Shown here piece by piece: positions 24,458-36,092 of a stretch of 36,092 bases of DNA. The position numbers were made by a program, and so were the translations under genes. The notes below the pieces were generated by a model that had not been told where the DNA came from, searched no databases, and saw only the letters and a list, made by a program, of their open reading frames with translations. Within the stretch, counting starts at the first letter, position 1. The number at the start of each line of letters is the position of its first letter. This stretch comes from Acidobacteriota bacterium (GTDB taxonomy: Bacteria; Acidobacteriota; Thermoanaerobaculia; Thermoanaerobaculales; Thermoanaerobaculaceae): the NCBI GenBank assembly GCA_003158745.1, contig PMLC01000039.1:62309-98400 (forward strand), read 5' to 3'.

Positions 24458-25279
24458 TCAGGCGGGTCGGGCGACGACGCCCAGCCCGCGCAGGAACTCG
24501 ACGAGGGTCCGGCCCATAGCTTTGGCGCTCTCGAGCGGCACCAAATGCCCACTTCCCGGGACCACCACTGACCGCGAGCCCGGGATACGCGCCGCGAGAA
24601 GTTCGGCCATCGCGACGAACTCGGGCACCTCGTGCTCGCCGCGCAGGATCAGGGTCGGCGCCGCGATCTCCGCAAGACGGTCGGTGACTGCCCAGTCGCG
24701 GTCCGGCACGTCGCGGACCGACGCCAGGTACTCCCCGGCAGGAAACGTGAGCACCATGGCTTCAAGCCGCTCCCGAGTTCCAGGGCGAGCCGCCGCCCTG
24801 GCGATCAGGGGGTGTGCGAGCCACACCTCGCGCATCGCCGGCTGCACCCCCCGCGCCCGGATCGCCCGGGCCAACTCCCGGAACGAGGTCATCATCGCCT
24901 CCGGGAGCGAATAGTCGGGCACGAGCGGCCCAATGAGCACGAGCGAGCGCACGAGGTCCGGGCGGCGCAGCGCGCACTCGAGCGCGATGCCGCCGCCCTT
25001 GGAGAGGCCGACGATGTGCGCAGCGGGGGGCCCGAGACACTCGATCAACCCGGCGAGGTCCGCGGTGTGGTCGCCCCAGCGGTAACCGCTCGGAGGCGAG
25101 CCGCTACGTCCATGCCCTCTCTGGTCGTACCTGACAACGCGGAAACCTGCGCCCATCAGCTCGGGCGCGACTTCGTCCCACACCCGAAGGTCGAGTGTGT
25201 GCCCGTGGAGCAGGACGACCGCTTCGCCGGCGCCCTCGGTGATGACGTTGAGCGCGACGCCGTCGCGTTCGATGATCAT
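24458..25279 (-). CDS. alpha/beta hydrolase (enol-lactonase-like)
   Basis: A 273-residue protein. ATG 25279 begins MIIERDGVALNVITEG, the normal first strands. The oxyanion motif is LLHGHTLD, then RYDQRGHGRSG, with nucleophile Ser in GLSKGGG and base His in GSGHLVPLE. The acid position, normally GxxD, reads RGEHEVPEF, so the Asp is replaced or shifted. The fold resembles 3-oxoadipate enol-lactonase or non-haem haloperoxidase, but no aromatic-degradation genes are nearby. It is unrelated in position to the three hydrolases of the acyl cluster. Both ends are bounded by repeat arrays. Confidence 0.8.
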   Translation of the reverse strand: MIIERDGVALNVITEGAGEAVVLLHGHTLDLRVWDEVAPELMGAGFRVVRYDQRGHGRSGSPPSGYRWGDHTADLAGLIECLGPPAAHIVGLSKGGGIALECALRRPDLVRSLVLIGPLVPDYSLPEAMMTSFRELARAIRARGVQPAMREVWLAHPLIARAAARPGTRERLEAMVLTFPAGEYLASVRDVPDRDWAVTDRLAEIAAPTLILRGEHEVPEFVAMAELLAARIPGSRSVVVPGSGHLVPLESAKAMGRTLVEFLRGLGVVARPA

Positions 25280-25287
25280 GGACGGTC

Positions 25288-25457
25288 CAAAGAACAGAGG
25301 GGCAAAGGGAAAAGGTGAAAGGTCAAACGTAAAGCACAGGAAACCGTGGAGGGACAGGGGCAACGAACGCTGACCACGGGTATTTGTCTTCCCTTTGCCC
25401 TTTGACCTTTCCCATTTGACCTCTTTGTTGCCCTTTTGCCTTTCCCGTTTGACCTCT
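25288..25457. repeat. inverted heptamer arrays (AAAGGTC/CCTTTGA family), long copy
   Basis: Left arm about 25288-25345, purine-rich (GGCAAAG, GGAAAAG, GTGAAAG, GTCAAAC, GTAAAGC). Right arm 25388-25457 is pyrimidine-rich (CTTCCCT, TTGCCCT, TTGACCT, TTCCCAT, TTGACCT and further units). The right arm ends one base before the stop codon of the upstream lipoprotein gene. This is the longest array pair of its family here. Confidence 0.85.
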
Positions 25458-25458
25458 A

Positions 25459-26367
25459 TCAGCGGGCCGTTTTGAACGTGAAGCTCCCGGCCTTTTCCAT
25501 TGCCTTGCCCGAGATGCCTTCCACGCCGTCCTGGTCGAGCGTCACGTGAAATGTGTCCCCGGGGGCGAGGTCTGTCCGCGGCTCCCAGATCACCCACCAG
25601 TGCTCGGGGTCGTAGCTCACCTGGCCGGCCACCAGCCCGCTGGACTCGCCCAGCACGGTCACGCTATCCCCCTTGACCTCGGCCGGCCGCAACGGCTCCG
25701 ACATCGAGAAGAGCACTCGTGGCCGCCGGGCCGCAACGAGCGCCCCCGAAGCCGGAAAGTGCGAGGTCACCACCGGGGCCAACGCGGGGCCGGGTCCTGT
25801 CGAGCCTGCCACGAACGTCACGCCGATGCTGACATGGAAGACCACGTCGGCGAGGCCGGGCGGGGGCGGGGGCGGGACCGGCAAGCCTTGGTGTCCCCCT
25901 TTGGCGAGGATCACCCCAATCGCCACAACGGTCACGACGCCGAGTGCGACCAGACCCGTCGAAACGTGGTCGAGCACCGCCTGGACCTCGGTGACCGACC
26001 CCTCTTTGACTGCCACGCCGGTGGCATTGTCGCCCAGCCGCACCACGTTGCCCGCCTCGTCCAGGCGCGCGGGGAAGCGCAGCCGATAGCTGCCTGGAGG
26101 CAGGTCGACCACGGTCCACGTCGGGTTGAGAGATCGGAAGACAGGCACCCACGTCTTGCCGTCCTGCCGCTGCAACTCTCCGAGGATCCCCGAGGGGCTC
26201 GGTCGGCCGCCACGCCGTGCGCTGTCGTCGGCGAAAACCCGCGCTGCGACGCCGCCGCCAGTGCCGGAAGCTGGGTGCGAGCCGGTCGCCTCTACCGAAA
26301 CGCAACTCGACAGGGTCAATGTGAGTTGCCCGACGGCGAGAAGCACCGCAATGGAGCGCCGGATCAT
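25459..26367 (-). CDS. putative lipoprotein with Ig-like (Big_5/SbsA) domain
   Basis: A 302-residue protein. ATG 26367 gives MIRRSIAVLLAVGQLTLTLS followed by Ser-Cys22, an LSSC lipobox, so it is probably lipid-anchored. Residues about 60-130 include GSYRLRFPARLDEAGNVVRL, a carboxypeptidase-regulatory-like beta fold. A hydrophobic stretch at 138-156 (GLVALGVVTVVAIGVILAKG) is followed by a run of prolines (VPPPPPPG). Residues about 197-302 match the SbsA/Big_5 Ig-like pattern (HFPASGALVAARRPRVLFSM, TFHVTLDQDGVEGISGKAM). A structural or adhesive envelope role is likely; no enzyme motif is seen. Having both a lipobox and an internal membrane-like helix is odd. Confidence 0.7.
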   Translation of the reverse strand: MIRRSIAVLLAVGQLTLTLSSCVSVEATGSHPASGTGGGVAARVFADDSARRGGRPSPSGILGELQRQDGKTWVPVFRSLNPTWTVVDLPPGSYRLRFPARLDEAGNVVRLGDNATGVAVKEGSVTEVQAVLDHVSTGLVALGVVTVVAIGVILAKGGHQGLPVPPPPPPGLADVVFHVSIGVTFVAGSTGPGPALAPVVTSHFPASGALVAARRPRVLFSMSEPLRPAEVKGDSVTVLGESSGLVAGQVSYDPEHWWVIWEPRTDLAPGDTFHVTLDQDGVEGISGKAMEKAGSFTFKTAR

Positions 26368-26410
26368 GCTCGAAGTGTCGCACTCGGTATCGCCGCGCGC
26401 AAGCAACGTG

Positions 26411-26587
26411 GAGAAGGTTAAAGGTGAAACGGAAGAGGCAAAAACGAAAGACAAGTCAGGGCTCGATCTGCACATCGGTACTTCTTCTCCTCTGCCCGTC
26501 CGCTCCCCTGCTCCTCGGCTGATCGGAGAGGTTGGAACTCCGGGTTCTCGTCTTCCCTTTGACCTCTTACCTTTGACCTTTCACGGC
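26411..26587. repeat. composite inverted arrays (heptamer outside, octamer inside)
   Basis: Left heptamer arm 26411-26452 (AAGGTTA, AAGGTGA, AACGGAA and further units) and right heptamer arm 26551-26587 (CCCTTTG, ACCTCTT, ACCTTTG, ACCTTTC) enclose an octamer array at 26486-26528 (TCCTCTGC, CCGTCCGC, TCCCCTGC, TCCTCGGC). Two families are nested in one gap between trpA and the lipoprotein gene. Confidence 0.8.
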
Positions 26588-26594
26588 CTGCATC

Positions 26595-27394
26595 TCACTT
26601 CCTCCGCGTCGCGAGAGCGAACGAGCGCGCGATCGCCTCGACCTCGCCGGGCAGCTCGGGAACGTCACCGAGCTCGCCGATCCGCTCGACGAGTGCCGAG
26701 CCGACCACCACTCCGTCGGCGAACTGGGCAATCCGGGTGACCTGCTCGGGCGTCGAGACGCCGAAACCGACGACCACCCTGGCCTTGGCGAGCTTGCGCA
26801 CCAGCCGGACCTGATCCTCGAGACCCTCCTCAAGTGAGGTGCGCGGCCCGGTTACTCCGGCGCGAGCGATGAAGTAGACGAAGCTCCCCGCGAGGCGCCG
26901 CACCGCCTTGACGCGCGCCCGGGTCGAGGTGGGAGCCACCAGCAACACGAGTTCGATCCCAACCCGTTTCAGGGCCTCGTGTGCCACGGCCGCTTCGTCC
27001 ACGGGAACGTCCGTGAACAGCACGCCGTCCACGCCGGCCGCCGCCGCGTCCACCGCGAAGCGCGCCATGCCGTAGGCGTGCACGGGGTTGAAGTACGTGA
27101 AGAGCACGACCGGTAGCTCGCTCGAGTAGCGCAGCTCGCGGACTAATCCCAGCACTCCCGATAGGGTCGTGCCTCGCGACAGGGCCCTCTCCGCAGCGCG
27201 CTGGTTCGTCGGGCCATCCGCGATCGGGTCGGTGAACGGCACGCCGAGCTCGAGGATGTCCGCCCCTGCGCGCTCGAGGGCGCGGGCCAGCACGACGGTG
27301 CGCTCCGGGTTCGGGTCACCGGCGGTGATGTAGGGGATGAACGCGGCGCGTTTCGCCTTCCGTGCCCGCGTGAATGCGCGCTCGATCCGCCCGC

Positions 27395-27398
<4 letters not shown>
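26595..27398 (-). CDS. trpA: tryptophan synthase alpha subunit
   Basis: A 267-residue TIM barrel that cleaves indole-3-glycerol phosphate and channels indole to TrpB. The catalytic Glu and Asp lie in [21 protein letters not shown] near residue 23, [12 protein letters not shown] and the phosphate-site region [12 protein letters not shown] and [10 protein letters not shown] are family hallmarks. ATG 27398 overlaps the trpB stop as ATGA, giving coupling and equal output. It is the last gene of the trp operon, followed by a composite repeat element. Confidence 0.97.
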
Positions 27399-28588
<1,190 letters not shown>

Positions 28589-28936
28589 AACACCCCCAGG
28601 AAGCGGCCAAACGCTCAGAGGTTCGGACGTTTGACGGTTCGGAGAAGACAGTGAAGAGTGAAGAGTTGAGAGTGAAGAGTTCAAGAACCGCAGCAGCGCT
28701 GCGGCTCCGGTTCGAAGGCGCACAGGCTCGAAAGCTCGAAGGAGAAAGTGAAGGGTGAAGAGTCGAGAGTGAAGATTTGAGAGAAAGCGCACGGGCGGGA
28801 GCGGCGCCTCGAGCGGCCGGTGTTGGCTCACGCCACTGCCGAACCCCGAAAGACGCGGACGCCTTCCCCGGATGCTGGCACGCAGTTCGCCGCCCCAATT
28901 GGGATCTCAGGTCTTTCAACTCTTCACTCTTCACTC
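28589..28936. repeat. 348-base repeat cluster between trpF and trpB
   Basis: No credible gene. It contains a GTTCGGAC octamer array (28609-28642), an AGTGAAG heptamer array (28649-28684), a perfect hairpin CCGCAGC/GCTGCGG (28688-28704), a GGCTCGAA octamer array (28709-28742) and a second AGTGAAG heptamer array (28744-28782). After about 130 unique bases come the inverted heptamer arm TCAACTC/TTCACTC (28912-28950) and an octamer arm (28957-28974), both inside the trpF 3' end. The order octamer-heptamer on the left mirrors heptamer-octamer on the right. Confidence 0.85.
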
Positions 28937-29581
28937 TCAACTCTTCACTCGTCCTTCCTCGAACGTTCGAACGCCCTTGACCGCCGCGATGAAGCGGCGG
29001 ACCTTGTCGAGGTCCTTGCGACCGGGGGCCGCCTCGACTCCGCTCGCAACGTCGACCCCGGCCGGACCGACCTGCGCCACCGCACCCGCGACGTTTTCCG
29101 GCGTGAGCCCCCCGGCAAGCCAGAACTCGAGGCCAGCGGGCGCTTCGGCTAGCAGGTTCCAGTCGAATGGCGTGCCGGTACCGCCGCCGGACGGCGATGC
29201 GGTGTCGAACAACACGCGCGCCACCCATGCGTACTCCGCCACCTTGCCCAAGTCAATTTGCTGGCCGACCGAGATCGCCTTGATGACCCGAGCACGGCCT
29301 CCGAGCGCTTCGCACATCTCCGGAGGCTCGCTGCCGTGCAGCTGCACGAGGTCGAGAGCCGCGTCGACCCGCACCTTCCGGACCGTGGCTTCGTCCTCGT
29401 CCCGGAATACCCCGACCTTCGGCACCCCTTCGATGACTCGGATCCACGACGACGCGGAGGTCTCCAACGAACGGCTCGACTCCGGGAAGAACACGAAACC
29501 CAGGAAATCCGCACCCTCGACCGCGGCTGCCCGCGCATCGGTCGGGGTCGTGAGTCCGCAGATCTTGACCGTCACGCGCAT
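28937..29581 (-). CDS. trpF: phosphoribosylanthranilate isomerase with repeat-derived tail
   Basis: A 214-residue TIM-barrel isomerase. VKICGLTTPTDA holds the catalytic Cys, LVQLHGSE and VLFDTASPSGGGTGTPFDW are hallmarks with the general-acid Asp, and FWLAGGLTPENV and GVDVASGVEAAPGRKD form the phosphate site. The start overlaps the end of trpC by 10 bases. The normal end of the protein is around RRFIAAVKG. The last residues, VRTFEEGRVKS, and the stop codon are encoded by an octamer/heptamer array, so a repeat element has apparently replaced the original stop. Confidence 0.95.
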   Translation of the reverse strand: MRVTVKICGLTTPTDARAAAVEGADFLGFVFFPESSRSLETSASSWIRVIEGVPKVGVFRDEDEATVRKVRVDAALDLVQLHGSEPPEMCEALGGRARVIKAISVGQQIDLGKVAEYAWVARVLFDTASPSGGGTGTPFDWNLLAEAPAGLEFWLAGGLTPENVAGAVAQVGPAGVDVASGVEAAPGRKDLDKVRRFIAAVKGVRTFEEGRVKS

Positions 29582-30375
29582 GCGACGAGCTCCGCGAGGC
29601 TCGCACTCGGGTCGGCCGAGCTCAGGAGGTATTCCCCGACGAGGAAGTGCCGCAGGCCGAGCCTTGCGACTCCGCGAACGTCGTCGGGGCCGCCGACCCC
29701 GCTCTCCATCACGACGATCCGGTCCCGAGGGACCCGGTCCGCCAGCCTCGTCGCGGCTTCGAAGTCCACTCGGAAGCTGTCGAGGTTACGAGAGTTAATG
29801 CCTATGAGCCGTGCCGGCAGCGCGACGAGCCGGTCCAGGTCGCGCTCGTCGTAGGCCTCGACGAGAGTCTCCAGGCCCAACTCTTCCGCGACCGCCAGCA
29901 TCTCGGCGAGCGCCGCACCCGGCAGCACACGCGCGATCAGCAGCACCGCGTCGCCACCGAGGATCGCGACCTCGAAGAGCTGGCGCGGCGCGAGGAGGAA
30001 GTCCTTTTGCAGGACCGGCAGCGCCACCGCACGCCGTACCGCCGGCACCCACCCCGGCTGTCCTGCGAAGAAATCCGGCTCGGTCACGACCGAGATCGCT
30101 GCGGCTCCACCGGTCTGGTAGGCGCGCGCCAACTCCACTGCGTCAAAGGGCTGCCGCAGCCAGCCTCTCGATGGGGAGCGCCGCTTGCACTCGGCGATGA
30201 CGCGCACCCCGGGCGCCGCGAGCGAGCCGGCGAGACTCCGCCTTCCTTCCCTTCGGCGGACCCCCGCGGCCTCACGAGCGCGCGCCTCCAGCTGCGGCGG
30301 CGCCGGGTCCCTGGCCAGCCTGGCAATCACCGCCTCGGTGATCTGGACGAGGATGTCCGGTCCGGGTGCTCTCAT
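29572..30375 (-). CDS. trpC: indole-3-glycerol phosphate synthase
   Basis: A 267-residue TIM barrel closing the indole ring from CdRP. VIAECKRRSPSRGW contains the catalytic Glu/Lys pair; ISVVTEPDFFAG, LPVLQKDFLL with the catalytic Lys, GINSRNLDSFRVD and VMESGVGGPDDV complete the active site. ATG 30375 overlaps the trpD stop as ATGA, and the 3' end overlaps trpF by 10 bases. It is a single-function gene, not the TrpC-TrpF fusion of E. coli. Confidence 0.96.
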   Translation of the reverse strand: MRAPGPDILVQITEAVIARLARDPAPPQLEARAREAAGVRRREGRRSLAGSLAAPGVRVIAECKRRSPSRGWLRQPFDAVELARAYQTGGAAAISVVTEPDFFAGQPGWVPAVRRAVALPVLQKDFLLAPRQLFEVAILGGDAVLLIARVLPGAALAEMLAVAEELGLETLVEAYDERDLDRLVALPARLIGINSRNLDSFRVDFEAATRLADRVPRDRIVVMESGVGGPDDVRGVARLGLRHFLVGEYLLSSADPSASLAELVACA

Positions 30376-31397
30376 CCGGCGAGCTCCCGTATCTTGCAGA
30401 TCACCGAATCGAGCTTGGTCGCGCCTCGTCCCGCAGCCAGGCACGCCCGGCTGGAGGCCAGCGCTGCCGGCAGGTTGGGCTCCGCGCCCGCGACGAGAAG
30501 TGCCGCCGCCGCGTTGAGGGCGACCGCCTCGGCTGCGGGAGAGCGCTCTCTGCCCTCCAGGATCGCACGCAGCCGCCCGGCGTTCTCCTCGGCGTCACCC
30601 CCAGCGAGGTCGGCGTGGGAGCCCCGGCCAATCCCGAGCCGCTCCGGGTCGATGGTCAGATCGCCCGTGACCAGCCCATCACGCACCTCGATCACTCGGG
30701 TGGGGGCGCACACGGACAGCTCGTCGAGGCCGTCCTCGCTGTGCACGACCCAGGCCCGCTCGGCGCCCAGCTCCGCCAGAGCTCCCGCCACCAGCGGCAT
30801 CACCTCGCGGTTGTAGACGCCGACGACCTGCCTCCTGACCCCGGCCGGGTTCGCGAGCGGCCCCAGCAGGTTGAAAGCCGTGCGCACGCCAAGGGCTCGG
30901 CGCACCGGCATCACTACCCGCATCGCGGGGTGCAGCCTCGGGGCGAACAGAAACGCGAACCCCTCCGAGTCGAGGAGCGCTCCGAGCTGCTCTGGTTCCA
31001 AATCGAGCCGCACCCCGAGCGCCTCCAGGACGTCCGCCGAGCCGCATCTCGAAGATACCGACCGGTTCCCGTGTTTGGCCACGCCGACGCCGCACGCCGC
31101 TGTGACGAGCGCCGCCCCGGTCGAGATGTTGATCGTGTGGGCGCCGTCGCCGCCCGTCCCGCACGTGTCGATGAGTCGCACCCGTGAGGTCGGGACCGCC
31201 ACGGCGAATGAACGCAGCACGCGGGCTGCGGCGGCAACCTCGACCGCGGTTTCGCCCTTGGCCCGCAGGGCGACGAGGAACGCCGCCTGCTCGGGCTCGG
31301 ACCAGTCCCCAGCCATCAGCGCCGTGAAGCACTCCTCGGTGGCCGCAGCGGGCAGGCTCTCGCGGGCGAGCAGCTTCTCCAGGACATCGCGGATCAT
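30372..31397 (-). CDS. trpD: anthranilate phosphoribosyltransferase
   Basis: A 341-residue enzyme that adds PRPP ribose phosphate to anthranilate. DTCGTGGDGAHTINIST is the PRPP loop, KHGNRSVSSRCGSADVLEALG the signature second loop, and FNLLGPLANPAG lines the anthranilate site. ATG 31397 begins MIRDVLEKLLARESL; upstream codons would only translate CAGCTGA repeats. It is not fused to TrpG. It is coupled to trpC by overlap but separated from trpG by a 142-base gap filled with arrays. Confidence 0.96.
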   Translation of the reverse strand: MIRDVLEKLLARESLPAAATEECFTALMAGDWSEPEQAAFLVALRAKGETAVEVAAAARVLRSFAVAVPTSRVRLIDTCGTGGDGAHTINISTGAALVTAACGVGVAKHGNRSVSSRCGSADVLEALGVRLDLEPEQLGALLDSEGFAFLFAPRLHPAMRVVMPVRRALGVRTAFNLLGPLANPAGVRRQVVGVYNREVMPLVAGALAELGAERAWVVHSEDGLDELSVCAPTRVIEVRDGLVTGDLTIDPERLGIGRGSHADLAGGDAEENAGRLRAILEGRERSPAAEAVALNAAAALLVAGAEPNLPAALASSRACLAAGRGATKLDSVICKIRELAG

Positions 31398-31423
31398 CGC
31401 CGGCCCACCACCCACCCACCCGG

Positions 31424-31535
31424 CTGACAGTTCACAGCTGACAGCTGACAGCTCCCCCACCCGTCCGCGGCTCCGGTTGGAGTGCCGTGAGGCGTCAGTT
31501 CTTGGCTGTCAGCTGTCAGCTGTGAGCTGTGGGCT
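31424..31535. repeat. inverted heptamer arrays (CTGACAG/GTCAGCT family)
   Basis: Left arm 31424-31455: CTGACAG, TTCACAG, CTGACAG, CTGACAG, CTCC. Right arm 31494-31535: GTCAGTT, CTTGGCT, GTCAGCT, GTCAGCT, GTGAGCT, GTGGGCT. The arms are reverse complements about 40 bases apart. The element fills the trpG-trpD gap inside the operon; the right arm ends 5 bases from the trpG stop. Confidence 0.92.
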
Positions 31536-31539
31536 AGCC

Positions 31540-32133
31540 TCACGCGGCCACCTTTGCCTTGACCCCCGCAAGGGCGAGGAAGTTGGCGAGCAGACGCTTG
31601 CCCCCCTGCGTCAGGTACGCCTCGGGGTGGAACTGGACGCCGAAGTGCGGCCGACTGCGGTGCGAGAGGCCCATCACGAGGCCGTCGTCGGTCCACGCCG
31701 TGACCTCGAGCTCGTGCGGAAGCGACTCCCGCTGCGCGACGAGGGAGTGATAGCGGGTTGCCATGAATGGGTTCCGTAACCCCGCAAACACGCCGAGGCC
31801 GCTGTGGTGCACCTCGGAGGTCTTGCCGTGGCGGGGCTCGGGGGCGCGCACGACGCGGCCGCCGCACGCCACCGCCAGCGCTTGGTGCCCGAGGCAGACC
31901 CCGAGCAGCGGCACGTCGGCCGCACTGCGGATCAGCTCCACACACACTCCGGCGGCCTCCGGCACGCCGGGGCCGGGCGACAGCACAATGGCGCGCGGCC
32001 GCAGGGCGAAGATCTCGGCGGCCGCGACGACGTCGTTGCGAATCACGCGCACCTCTTCGCTCTCCGCCAGCTCCCGCAGATACTGGACGAGGTTATAGGT
32101 GAACGAGTCGTAGTTGTCCACGAGCACGATCAA
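31540..32133 (-). CDS. trpG: anthranilate synthase glutamine amidotransferase subunit
   Basis: A 197-residue class I amidotransferase supplying ammonia to TrpE. The nucleophile is Cys80 in GVCLGHQ; His169 and Glu171 in FHPE complete the triad; LSPGPGVPEA forms the oxyanion region. The start is a TTG at 32133, which overlaps the trpE stop (TTGA) and has GAGGGG 7 bases upstream. The same protein class also serves p-aminobenzoate synthesis (PabA), so it could be shared, but its place between trpE and trpD argues for tryptophan. Confidence 0.95.
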   Translation of the reverse strand: MIVLVDNYDSFTYNLVQYLRELAESEEVRVIRNDVVAAAEIFALRPRAIVLSPGPGVPEAAGVCVELIRSAADVPLLGVCLGHQALAVACGGRVVRAPEPRHGKTSEVHHSGLGVFAGLRNPFMATRYHSLVAQRESLPHELEVTAWTDDGLVMGLSHRSRPHFGVQFHPEAYLTQGGKRLLANFLALAGVKAKVAA

Positions 32134-33608
32134 GGCTGCATCCCCTCAGCCAGACGGGCCGCGAAAGCCAGGGCCCGGGCCTTGTTCGCGCACTCGGCGA
32201 GTTCGCTTTCCGGCAGCGAGTCGAACACGATCCCCGCGCCCGCCTGGATGTGCAGGCCGCCCTTGGCGACCACGGCCGTCCGGATCGCGATGCAGGCGTC
32301 CATGTCGCCCCCAAAGTCGAAGTAGCCGACCGCCCCGCCGTACACGCCGCGGCGGAGGACCTCGAGTTGCTCGATCAGCTCCATCGCCCGCACCTTCGGG
32401 GCGCCGGTCAGCGTGCCGGCCGGGAAGCACGCCAACAGCACGTCGAGCGCGTCGTGCCCGGTTTCCAGGTCGCCCACGACCTCGCTCGTGAGGTGCATGA
32501 CCTGGGAGTAGCGCTCCACGTCCATGAAGCGCACGACCCTCACGCTGCCGGGCTTCGAAATCTTCCCGATGTCGTTCCGTCCAAGGTCCACCAGCATCAG
32601 GTGCTCGGCGCGCTCCTTCTCGTCGCCGGCAAGCTCGGCGGCCAGGCGCGCGTCCTCCGCCGCCGTGTGCCCGCGCTTGCGGGTGCCCGCGATCGGGCAC
32701 GTGGCCGCGTGGCTCCCACGCAAGCGAGCCAGCGTCTCCGGCGAGGAGCCGAGGATCTGTGCGTCGCCGGCGTCCATGTAGAACATGTATGGAGAGGGGT
32801 TCGCGATGCGGAGCGCCCTGTAGAAGGCGATCGGCGACGCAGTTGCGGGCCGCGACCACCGGCGCGAGAGCACGATCTGGAAGCACTCCCCGGCCCGGAT
32901 CTCCTCGCGCGCCCGCACGACCGCGGAGAGGAACCGCTCGTCCTCGGGGGCGACCCGCCACGACGCGTCGGGTTGCGCAGCCGCTTCGGCGACCGGCAGG
33001 GGTGCCGGACGTGCCTCGTCGAGGGGCGACGCCAGGACAACTTCCAGGCGGTCCAGGGCGGCGACGGCACGCTCATACGCAGCCTCGGCGCCCTCCTCGA
33101 CGCTCACCGTGGCGATCAACAGGAGCCGCTGGCGGACGCGGTCGAGGGCCGCGATCACCGGGTAGATCGCGAACCATGCGTCGGGCAGTCCCAGCGGGTC
33201 CGGAAGGTGAGCTGGGACCCGCTCGATGAGGCGCACGACGTCGTATCCGAACCAGCCAACGGCTCCGCCCGCGAACGGCGGCAGATCCTCGAGTGGCGCC
33301 CGGTCCTTGCCGGTGATCTCTCCCCGCAGGACGTCGAGCGGCGCACTCGCCACCTCTTCCCCGTCGATGGTCGCCTTGGATCCCCTCACCGCCACGACCC
33401 TCGCGGGATCGGCGCCGGCGAACGACCACCGCGCAACGCGCTCGCCTCCCTCGACGCTCTCCAGGAGGAACGGATGCCGGCCGGCCCGGGCGAGCCGCAG
33501 CAGCATCCCGGTCGGGGTCACGGTGTCGGCCGTCAACTCCCGAACCACGGGCACGAGGCGGTGGCGGCCGGCCAGCTCGACGAACCGGGCGCGCGAGGGC
33601 CGGATCAC
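32130..33608 (-). CDS. trpE: anthranilate synthase component I
   Basis: A 492-residue chorismate-utilising enzyme, first of the tryptophan branch. The N-terminal LLES motif (residues 48-51) is part of the tryptophan feedback site, so inhibition by Trp is expected. The chorismate domain shows RAGECFQIVLSRRW, NPSPYMFYMD, CPIAGTRKRGHT, LMLVDLGRNDIGKIS and GTLTGAPKVRAMELI. The start is GTG 33608 with GAGGAG 6 bases upstream; an ATG two bases further upstream is out of frame and meets a stop at once. A perfect 17-base palindrome touches the ribosome site. It overlaps trpG. Confidence 0.96.
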   Translation of the reverse strand: MIRPSRARFVELAGRHRLVPVVRELTADTVTPTGMLLRLARAGRHPFLLESVEGGERVARWSFAGADPARVVAVRGSKATIDGEEVASAPLDVLRGEITGKDRAPLEDLPPFAGGAVGWFGYDVVRLIERVPAHLPDPLGLPDAWFAIYPVIAALDRVRQRLLLIATVSVEEGAEAAYERAVAALDRLEVVLASPLDEARPAPLPVAEAAAQPDASWRVAPEDERFLSAVVRAREEIRAGECFQIVLSRRWSRPATASPIAFYRALRIANPSPYMFYMDAGDAQILGSSPETLARLRGSHAATCPIAGTRKRGHTAAEDARLAAELAGDEKERAEHLMLVDLGRNDIGKISKPGSVRVVRFMDVERYSQVMHLTSEVVGDLETGHDALDVLLACFPAGTLTGAPKVRAMELIEQLEVLRRGVYGGAVGYFDFGGDMDACIAIRTAVVAKGGLHIQAGAGIVFDSLPESELAECANKARALAFAARLAEGMQP

Positions 33609-33681: not shown

Positions 33682-34971
33682 TCACACTTTGCCCCGGCTC
33701 CCCGCCCGGAGGGATTCCTCGTGCAACGTCAGCTTCTCCTGAAGCGCCAGGACACCCGCGGCGTGAGCCAGAGCGGGGTAACGGTGGGCGGCCACGCTCA
33801 CGACCGATGTCCGGTGCACGAAGTCCCAAACCCCGAGGGGCGAGGCGAACCGGGCCGCCCCGGTAGTCGGGAGCAGGTGGTTGATGCCGACCACGTAATC
33901 CCCGAGCGCCGACGCCGCCCACGGTCCCAGATAGACCGCGCCCGCCCTCTCGATGCCGTCGAGCAGCCGGAGCGGGTCGGAGACCAACAGCTCGACGTTC
34001 TCCGGGGCGATGCGGTTGACCACGTCGAGTGCCGCATCCATGTCGGGGACGAGCACGATCGCCCCCCAGTTCTTGATCGCAGCCCGCGCTGCGCTCTTCC
34101 TCGGCAAGGACCGAAGGCGCGCCGAAACCCGCCGCTCCACCTTCTCAGCCACCGCCTTCGACGGCGTCACCAGGACGGCGAGAGCGTCCGGGTCGTGCTC
34201 CGTCTGCGCCAGCATGTCGGCGGCGGCGATCGCGGCCTCGGCGTGGGAGTCCGCCACGACCACGATCTCGGAGGGGCCGCTCACGGCGTCCAGGCCGACG
34301 ACGCCGAAGACCGCGCGCTTGGCGGCGGCGACCCACCTACCGCCCGGCCCCACGATCTTCTCCACGGGAGTCACGGAGTCGGTGCCGTACGCAAGCGCGG
34401 CGACCGCGTGCGCGCCGCCCATGAGGTACACCTCGTGAAGGTCGAGCCGGTCGAGGAGGTAGCGGAGGTGGGGTGACGCCAGGAACGCCCTCGGCGGGGT
34501 GGCCACGGCGATCCTGGACACGCCGGCGACACGAGCGGGGACGACCGCCATCAGCAGTGAGGAGAGGTACACCGCCGAGCCCCCGGGTACGTACACGCCG
34601 AGCGACTCGATCGGCCGCACTCTGACTCCCAGATCGCCGCCGTCCCCTTCAAGTGTGAAGCCCTTGGGCATCTGCGGCTCGTGGTAGGCCTTGAGGTTCG
34701 CGAGCGCCAGCTCAATGGCGTTGATGAACTCCTCGCCGACCTCCTCGCCGCCCTGGACCGTGCCGCGAAGACGGAAGTCCCCCACCGGCAGGCCCTTGAG
34801 GTCGTGGCGCCGGACCAGGGCGACGAGCGCCTTGTCGCCCTGCTTCGCCACCGAGGCCACGATCTTGCGCGCCTTCTCCTCGATTTGAGGCGGAAGCACT
34901 TCAGCCATGCGCCTCTCGACCCTCGCCAGGTAGCGTTCCCCCTTCTCATCGTCACTGCGCCAGATCTTCAT
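33682..34971 (-). CDS. hisD: histidinol dehydrogenase-like protein with catalytic His replaced
   Basis: A 429-residue HisD-family protein. Zinc ligands known from E. coli HisD are conserved: Gln256 and His259 in AQTEHDPDA, Asp358 in GDYVVGINHLLPT, and the final His in LTLHEESL. VGPGGRWVAAAKRAVFG and VSGPSEIVVVADSHAE are family motifs. The catalytic pair Glu326-His327 of E. coli (APEHL) reads APENV here, Glu324-Asn325, so the general base His is lost. ATG 34971 has AGGGGA upstream. It lies alone, without other his genes, between aroDE and trpE. It may be a slow HisD, or a family member with another alcohol substrate. Confidence 0.85.
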   Translation of the reverse strand: MKIWRSDDEKGERYLARVERRMAEVLPPQIEEKARKIVASVAKQGDKALVALVRRHDLKGLPVGDFRLRGTVQGGEEVGEEFINAIELALANLKAYHEPQMPKGFTLEGDGGDLGVRVRPIESLGVYVPGGSAVYLSSLLMAVVPARVAGVSRIAVATPPRAFLASPHLRYLLDRLDLHEVYLMGGAHAVAALAYGTDSVTPVEKIVGPGGRWVAAAKRAVFGVVGLDAVSGPSEIVVVADSHAEAAIAAADMLAQTEHDPDALAVLVTPSKAVAEKVERRVSARLRSLPRKSAARAAIKNWGAIVLVPDMDAALDVVNRIAPENVELLVSDPLRLLDGIERAGAVYLGPWAASALGDYVVGINHLLPTTGAARFASPLGVWDFVHRTSVVSVAAHRYPALAHAAGVLALQEKLTLHEESLRAGSRGKV

Positions 34972-35155: not shown

Positions 35156-36092
35156 TCACTCGTCCCCATCCGCGAGTCCGACGGCGGCAGCCATTGCCCG
35201 GACCGGTGGCGGCGCGCCGGTCATCGCCGCGAACTGCGCCACGGCCTGGAAGAGCAACACGCTCCTTCCGCCCACGTACCGCCAGCCTTTGCGGGCCGCG
35301 AGCTGCTCGAGGAAGGTCGGAGCCTCGCCGTACGGCAGGTCGACGACAACAGCCCCTTCCGGGAGCCGCAACCGCTCCAACCACGGCGACGAGGCGCCGT
35401 CTGCGCCTGCCGGAGTGGCGTTGACCGCCACCCAAATTTCCTCGCTCGCGCCGATCTCGCCCGCCGAGACTCCGAGCCTCTTCGCCGCCGCCCCGGCGCG
35501 GCCCGGGTCGCGGGCGGCGATCGTCACATCGGCCCCGGCGAGCTGCAGCGCCACAGCCGCCGCGCGGGCCGCTCCGCCGGCACCGAGTACCAGCGCCCGA
35601 ACACCGGGTAGCTCCACCCCTTCGTCGGCCAGGACGCGGGTGATCCCGTCCATGTCCGTGCAGTCGCCGAGCACCTTGCCCGCCCGCGGCAGGACCGTGT
35701 TCACCGCCCCCGCCCGCTCGGCCCGCGGCGCCAGGAGCGTGCAGCGTCGGGCCGCCTCGCCCTTCCACGGCATCGTGATCGCGAATCCGCCCGCAGGCAG
35801 CCCGAGGTCGTCGAGCCACGACTCTCCGGCGGGCACGAGCAGCTCCTCGAGCTCCTCGACGTCACGCACCTCAAGAGGAACGAAGGCATTCGGCAGGCCG
35901 AGCGCGCGGTACGCTGCGGCGTGCATGCGCGGCGAGAGCGAGCTGCCGACCGCCGAGCCGAGGACGGCAAAGAGCCTGCGCGGACGGCCGCCGAGGTGGC
36001 CTATGAGGGCATCGAGCTCTAGCGGGACGAACTGCCCGGCGGCGCCGTGCCGCCCGGGGGCCCACGCTGCGTACCCGAGCGGCGCCCCGAGC
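35156..36092 (-). CDS. aroDE: 3-dehydroquinate dehydratase / shikimate dehydrogenase fusion (5' end outside window)
   Basis: The frame stays open to the window edge, so the N-terminal part is missing. The visible C-terminal domain is shikimate dehydrogenase: SLSPRMHAAAYRALGL (substrate site), ITMPWKGEAA with the catalytic Lys, GDCTDMDGI with the catalytic Asp (usually N-T-D; here C-T-D), and GAGGAARAAAVAL for NADP. Before it, LGYAAWAPGRHGAAGQFVPL resembles the C-terminal end of type I dehydroquinase (AroD), whose last helix follows an APGQ-like segment. So the gene looks like an AroD-AroE fusion performing steps 3 and 4 of the shikimate pathway. Being first in line before hisD and trpE, it feeds chorismate to the trp genes downstream. 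Confidence 0.8.
   Translation of the reverse strand, partial: LGAPLGYAAWAPGRHGAAGQFVPLELDALIGHLGGRPRRLFAVLGSAVGSSLSPRMHAAAYRALGLPNAFVPLEVRDVEELEELLVPAGESWLDDLGLPAGGFAITMPWKGEAARRCTLLAPRAERAGAVNTVLPRAGKVLGDCTDMDGITRVLADEGVELPGVRALVLGAGGAARAAAVALQLAGADVTIAARDPGRAGAAAKRLGVSAGEIGASEEIWVAVNATPAGADGASSPWLERLRLPEGAVVVDLPYGEAPTFLEQLAARKGWRYVGGRSVLLFQAVAQFAAMTGAPPPVRAMAAAVGLADGDE

Follow-up and report, generated by a model that had tools for sequence, protein, structure and literature searches.

Three described systems offer points of comparison for the protein discussed here: histidinol dehydrogenase itself (HisD, EC 1.1.1.23; TIGR00069, PF00815); the sulfopropanediol 3-dehydrogenase HpsN, which is likewise a HisD-fold protein outside histidine synthesis; and, as a works-like analogy only, HisZ. 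HisZ is a catalytically dead histidyl-tRNA-synthetase-like partner of HisG, and so is also an ex-enzyme that now serves a biosynthetic enzyme as its non-catalytic partner, but its fold is unrelated to that of HisD and its partner is known, whereas for our protein we only infer one. In MtHDH, the residues equivalent to E. coli HisD E326 and H327 touch the nicotinamide and the substrate (PMC5585171). The roles proposed in HpsN are assigned by analogy with EcHisD, the His acting as general base and the Glu activating water, and replacing either residue by Ala (Glu318Ala, His319Ala) greatly reduces activity (PMC11382572). HpsN keeps the Glu-His pair and the zinc, and has a diagnostic His126 that follows a GG loop (motif numbering as in PMC11382572 and PMC5585171).

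The homologue in question, called hisD* here, lies in a 36,092-nucleotide stretch of contig PMLC01000039.1 (the window, meaning the whole stretch analysed), where it occupies positions 33682-34971 on the minus strand as an intact ORF of 429 aa with an ATG start codon. The protein belongs to the HisD family, scoring 418 bits against the TIGR00069 hisD profile (cut-off 243.8), and solved HisD structures align to it across almost its entire length. A structure model built on seven sequences (mean pLDDT 69) retrieved HisD structures as its best matches; being of modest quality, this predicted model is taken to confirm the HisD fold of the protein and nothing beyond it. Family, fold and length are thus common to HisD and hisD*, as are the zinc ligands and the catalytic Glu: the E. 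coli ligands Q259, H262, D360 and H419 align with Q256, H259, D358 and H417, bearing out the first-pass annotation of this DNA. In contrast, the general-base His has become Asn. The codons GAG AAC (33997..34002, read from 34002 to 33997 on the minus strand) encode E324-N325 where E. coli HisD has E326-H327, so the earlier reading of E-N for E-H is confirmed by alignment, and the copy in the window lacks an intact catalytic Glu-His dyad. Identity with HpsN was rejected, since the equivalent of its His126 is Tyr135 and, unlike in HpsN, the dyad is altered.

Unlike a conventional HisD, hisD* also has no histidine pathway around it. A PF00815 profile search of the genome returned hisD* as its sole match, and searches for hisG, hisB and hisA/hisF gave no match over cut-off in this genome or in any of its eight congeners (two of them recorded under the names Terriglobia bacterium SRVP_14 and Thermoanaerobaculaceae bacterium PFL15; NCBI assigns Thermoanaerobaculaceae to Acidobacteriota). 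The same searches succeed in six other members of the family and in most hisD-bearing members of the class. His-negative status as used below is defined by these genome-wide hisG, hisB and hisA/hisF searches, and the calls rest on draft genomes that are 74-99% complete; the collapsed operon, however, is seen directly inside single contigs. The earlier remark that no other his genes lie nearby therefore extends genome-wide for hisG, hisB and hisA/hisF. The same absence, along with the single HisD, refutes the suggestion that another hisD copy makes histidine in this organism, and it led us to reject the reading of hisD* as an ordinary HisD with its pathway located elsewhere in the genome.

As the first-pass annotation had it, the gene sits between aroDE and trpE. 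The genes of this operon are all on the minus strand: aroE (shikimate dehydrogenase, 35156..36091, its 5' end cut by the contig end), hisD* (33682..34971), trpE (anthranilate synthase component I, 32130..33608), trpG (anthranilate synthase glutamine amidotransferase, 31540..32133), trpD (anthranilate phosphoribosyltransferase, 30372..31460), trpC (indole-3-glycerol phosphate synthase, 29572..30444), trpF (phosphoribosylanthranilate isomerase, 29012..29566, found as a tblastn match to the TrpF half of E. coli TrpCF), the trpB ORF (27395..28831, whose last ~400 residues are the conserved TrpB portion) and trpA (26595..27398). A distance of 73 bp separates hisD* from trpE. At the aroE position the congener locus L039 has an aroD-aroE fusion, while the window's contig stops at 36092. 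The possibility of a his enzyme standing in for TrpF was rejected, as trpF itself was found in the window. Downstream of trpA are a Big_5 (Ig-like) domain protein (25459-26475) and an alpha/beta hydrolase (24458-25597), both kept at the same place in several congeners.

We read hisD* as the sole survivor of a his-trp supraoperon and, with a probability of roughly 0.7, as a pseudoenzyme derived from histidinol dehydrogenase and retained for a non-catalytic role. Six pathway-positive members of the family (L051-L056) carry aroE-hisG-hisD-hisC-hisB-hisH-hisA-hisF-hisI-trpE-trpG-trpD in one stretch, with some contigs ending within the trp genes. (In one of them, G011, hisD is read in two overlapping frames at L054:7532-8828, a frameshift or assembly error.) Because three further families of the class (L081-L083) share this order, it is ancestral, and the ancestral order of the class is aroDE-hisG-hisD-hisC-hisB-hisH-hisA-hisF-hisI-trpE-trpG-trpD-trpC-trpF-trpB-trpA. 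In the genus of the window the stretch is collapsed to aroE-hisD-trpE-trpG-trpD-trpC-trpF-trpB-trpA; the collapsed operon is seen in the window and in L039-L050. This is the supraoperon minus all of its his genes but hisD, so hisD is a survivor that has stayed where it was and is no newcomer to an aromatic operon.

Similar collapses are found outside the genus. In G013, from another genus of the same family, aroE is followed by a hisG remnant of ~72 aa, a full-length hisD and then trpE; the loss there is a separate one, since the remnant persists while the congener G015 (a genome only 81% complete) keeps full hisG together with hisF and hisI. G013 also has a second trpE-trpG-trpD-trpC cluster (L079, G013:C166) on a separate contig from the hisD-adjacent trpE-trpG. 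Three genomes of a second family, f2 (G017, G019 and G023), have hisD* immediately upstream of trpE with no adjoining aroE, and in G037 the order is aroE, hisD* and then a TrpG-like gene. G047 is an exception among his-negative lineages in that hisA/hisF is retained while hisG and hisB are lost, its order being aroDE, hisD*, a HisA-HisF-like fusion, a HisS-like gene and then trpE. The fusion, HisA joined to a HisF-like half, is a single 493-aa ORF between the altered HisD and trpE (L084:4415-5896), followed by the HisS-like gene (L084:5893-7179), and its HisF half looks degenerate (VPVMEIRDG versus IPCLDVRDG in E. coli). Mapped on the HisD tree, the his-negative copies require 5 changes of his status, at least 3 of them forced by well-supported branches, so the phylogeny indicates that loss of the pathway with hisD spared took place in at least three lineages of the class and probably in five.

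The f2 copies are probably native, because f2 hisD* groups with the window's family (support 100/99) and the HisD of pathway-positive f2 genomes belongs elsewhere, grouping with Gastranaerophilales in a region where long branches meet. In two of those pathway-positive genomes (G022 and G025; L057 and L058) hisD is the last gene of a his operon of different order, and the grouping of its HisD apart from the order's native HisD suggests that this operon is a horizontally acquired replacement. G018, G020 and other his-lacking f2 genomes have the trp operon with no hisD, and no hisD remnant was found beside their trp operons; hisD is thus dispensable in some backgrounds and not universally needed.

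Loss of catalytic residues follows the loss of the pathway in graded fashion. The dyad reads E-H in every pathway-positive copy tabulated and in the his-negative G005, G007 and G013, E-N in the window, R-H in G001, Q-H in G002, Q-R in G004, G006 and G008, S-R in G017, G019 and G023, and Q-Q in G047 and G037. Taken with the tree, the differing substitutions imply about six separate dyad losses. The copy in the window is at an early or intermediate stage, with the base His gone and the Glu and zinc site retained, and because only the His is lost it may have weak residual activity. Relatives differ from HisD further, having also lost zinc ligands and part of the NAD loop: the equivalents of Q259, H262, D360 and H367 are all lost in G004, G006 and G008, whereas G002 has lost Q259, H262 and H367 and kept D360, and all four have lost P132, G133 and P209, leaving the NAD loop partly gone in this subclade. 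Loss of zinc ligands is partial in G002 and large in G004, G006, G008 and G047. In G004, 9 of 15 otherwise conserved functional-site columns are changed versus 11 of 53 other conserved columns (p = 0.005), and across the most decayed subclade the counts are 8-9 of 15 versus 10-12 of 53 (p 0.005-0.012); G017, G019, G023 and G047 show a non-significant tendency in that direction, and G037 shows none. That catalysis is dispensable for the retained protein is well supported. Each of the three sites (dyad, zinc site and NAD loop) has changed in one lineage or another, so a non-catalytic function is the most likely one to have been retained.

The first-pass annotation had offered two enzymatic explanations, that the mechanism tolerates Asn and that the protein has a new substrate. 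The former finds no support, as relatives replace either or both dyad residues and the subclade has lost zinc and NAD residues. The latter, in the form of a re-purposed enzyme acting on a different aromatic-pathway substrate, draws on the operon context, on the HisD fold having given one other activity in HpsN and on the zinc site that the f2 and G037 copies retain. Nevertheless, we consider it unlikely and not needed. The old pocket positions 237, 262, 360 and 367 vary among the close relatives G002, G004, G006 and G008, which is unexpected for a working site and makes a new substrate a poor fit to the most decayed subclade, and different lineages retain different parts of the site. It is improbable that hisD* is instead an active or weakly active histidinol dehydrogenase salvaging external histidinol. 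The window's intact Glu and zinc ligands are compatible with salvage, and G005, G007 and G013 may be active because their dyad and zinc ligands are intact; however, the tested histidinol-supply genes are absent, most copies have no dyad, five of them (G002, G004, G006, G008 and G047) have lost zinc ligands, and the corresponding HpsN variants lose much of their activity (PMC11382572).

We calculated dN/dS by NG86 with a codon bootstrap, using a neutral simulation at the same synonymous divergence as the reference. Every his-negative hisD copy that does not run into a contig end is an open frame of full length. For these copies dN/dS ranges from 0.06 to 0.30 over the whole gene and from 0.06 to 0.41 in its single quarters, versus 0.86-1.5 in the neutral simulation, where amino-acid changes are also at least fourfold more numerous. 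Individual comparisons gave 0.22 (0.14-0.34) for G004-G008, 0.12 for the window and G001, 0.063 (0.042-0.091) for G017-G019 and 0.11 for G017-G023. Between G017 and G019, HisD* is more conserved (92% identity) than TrpE (88%), TrpG (76%) and TrpD. These values indicate strong purifying selection on the hisD* copies and make it decidedly improbable that the gene is a neutrally decaying relic, held only by its position in the trp operon or by cis signals (promoter, translation coupling) for trpE. Such a relic would accord with the location between aroDE and trpE, the ongoing loss of catalytic residues and the relatives that have no copy, but not with full-length frames, low dN/dS throughout the gene or a HisD* that diverges less than TrpE. 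A sequencing error or strain-specific mutation at Asn325, the conclusion the earlier annotation would have drawn from orthologues with His at this site, is barely credible, and as a general account it is refuted. The congeners G005 and G007 do read E-H, yet as part of a graded loss, and in ten other genomes several independent substitutions have removed the dyad at this orphan locus. Nor is the change one of chance or error, since the tested his genes are missing across the whole genus and several relatives have lost the dyad through other substitutions.

As judged from sequence, then, hisD* combines lost catalytic residues with conservation by selection, and we return to the reading of a pseudoenzyme kept for a non-catalytic role. 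The comparisons show that hisG, hisB and, except in G047, hisA/hisF disappeared from the aroDE-his-trp supraoperon with full-length hisD spared, that the dyad was then lost several times by different substitutions while the protein was still selected, and that the most decayed subclade also lost zinc residues and part of the NAD loop. On our reading, histidinol dehydrogenation would no longer be the selected function, and a second, non-catalytic function, probably already present in true HisD, would have protected hisD, alone among the his genes, from being lost. Extended to the whole class, the proposal that HisD has a second, non-enzymatic function tied to aromatic or tryptophan synthesis, which pathway loss uncovers so that hisD alone is kept time and again and then sheds its catalytic residues, falls a little short of even odds in our estimation. 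More tentatively still, hisD* might be a structural or regulatory partner of a co-transcribed aromatic or tryptophan enzyme (AroDE, or TrpE/TrpG). It adjoins aroDE and/or trp genes in the cases examined; part of this adjacency reflects inherited gene order, which leaves the connection with tryptophan synthesis a contextual guess. Two candidate contact elements persist in decayed copies from both families: a C-terminal tail specific to the order (SL..GSRGK), which in the form AG[ST]RG is common to all hisD* copies, and an MK-EKG stretch at the N-terminus.

Searches of open-licence literature returned nothing relevant on this gene arrangement, on a supraoperon with hisD and trpE or on HisD as a pseudoenzyme. 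An enzyme spared in repeated pathway losses, whose catalytic residues are then lost under strong purifying selection, is a natural experiment that separates chemistry from a hidden function, and it opens a moonlighting role of HisD to direct testing. The hosts of the orphan hisD are soil bacteria without the other tested histidine genes. Even strongly decayed copies pass the NCBI hisD equivalog cut-off and will be misannotated, and predictions of auxotrophy made from genomes would take them for histidinol dehydrogenases.

In a sample of the phylum, HisD without hisB is uncommon outside the window's class. G466 and G476 were rejected as orphan cases, as their his operons are split by contig ends and their dyads are intact (E-H). 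G038 has adjoining HisF- and HisH-like genes (L086:9833-11336) with no hisG, hisB or hisD matches, a pair that perhaps has a non-histidine use. Five genomes in the phylum survey (G214, G332, G228, G356 and G489) have HisD and no hisB match; G214 and G332 are of the same genus, have low HisD scores and are possibly another altered lineage.
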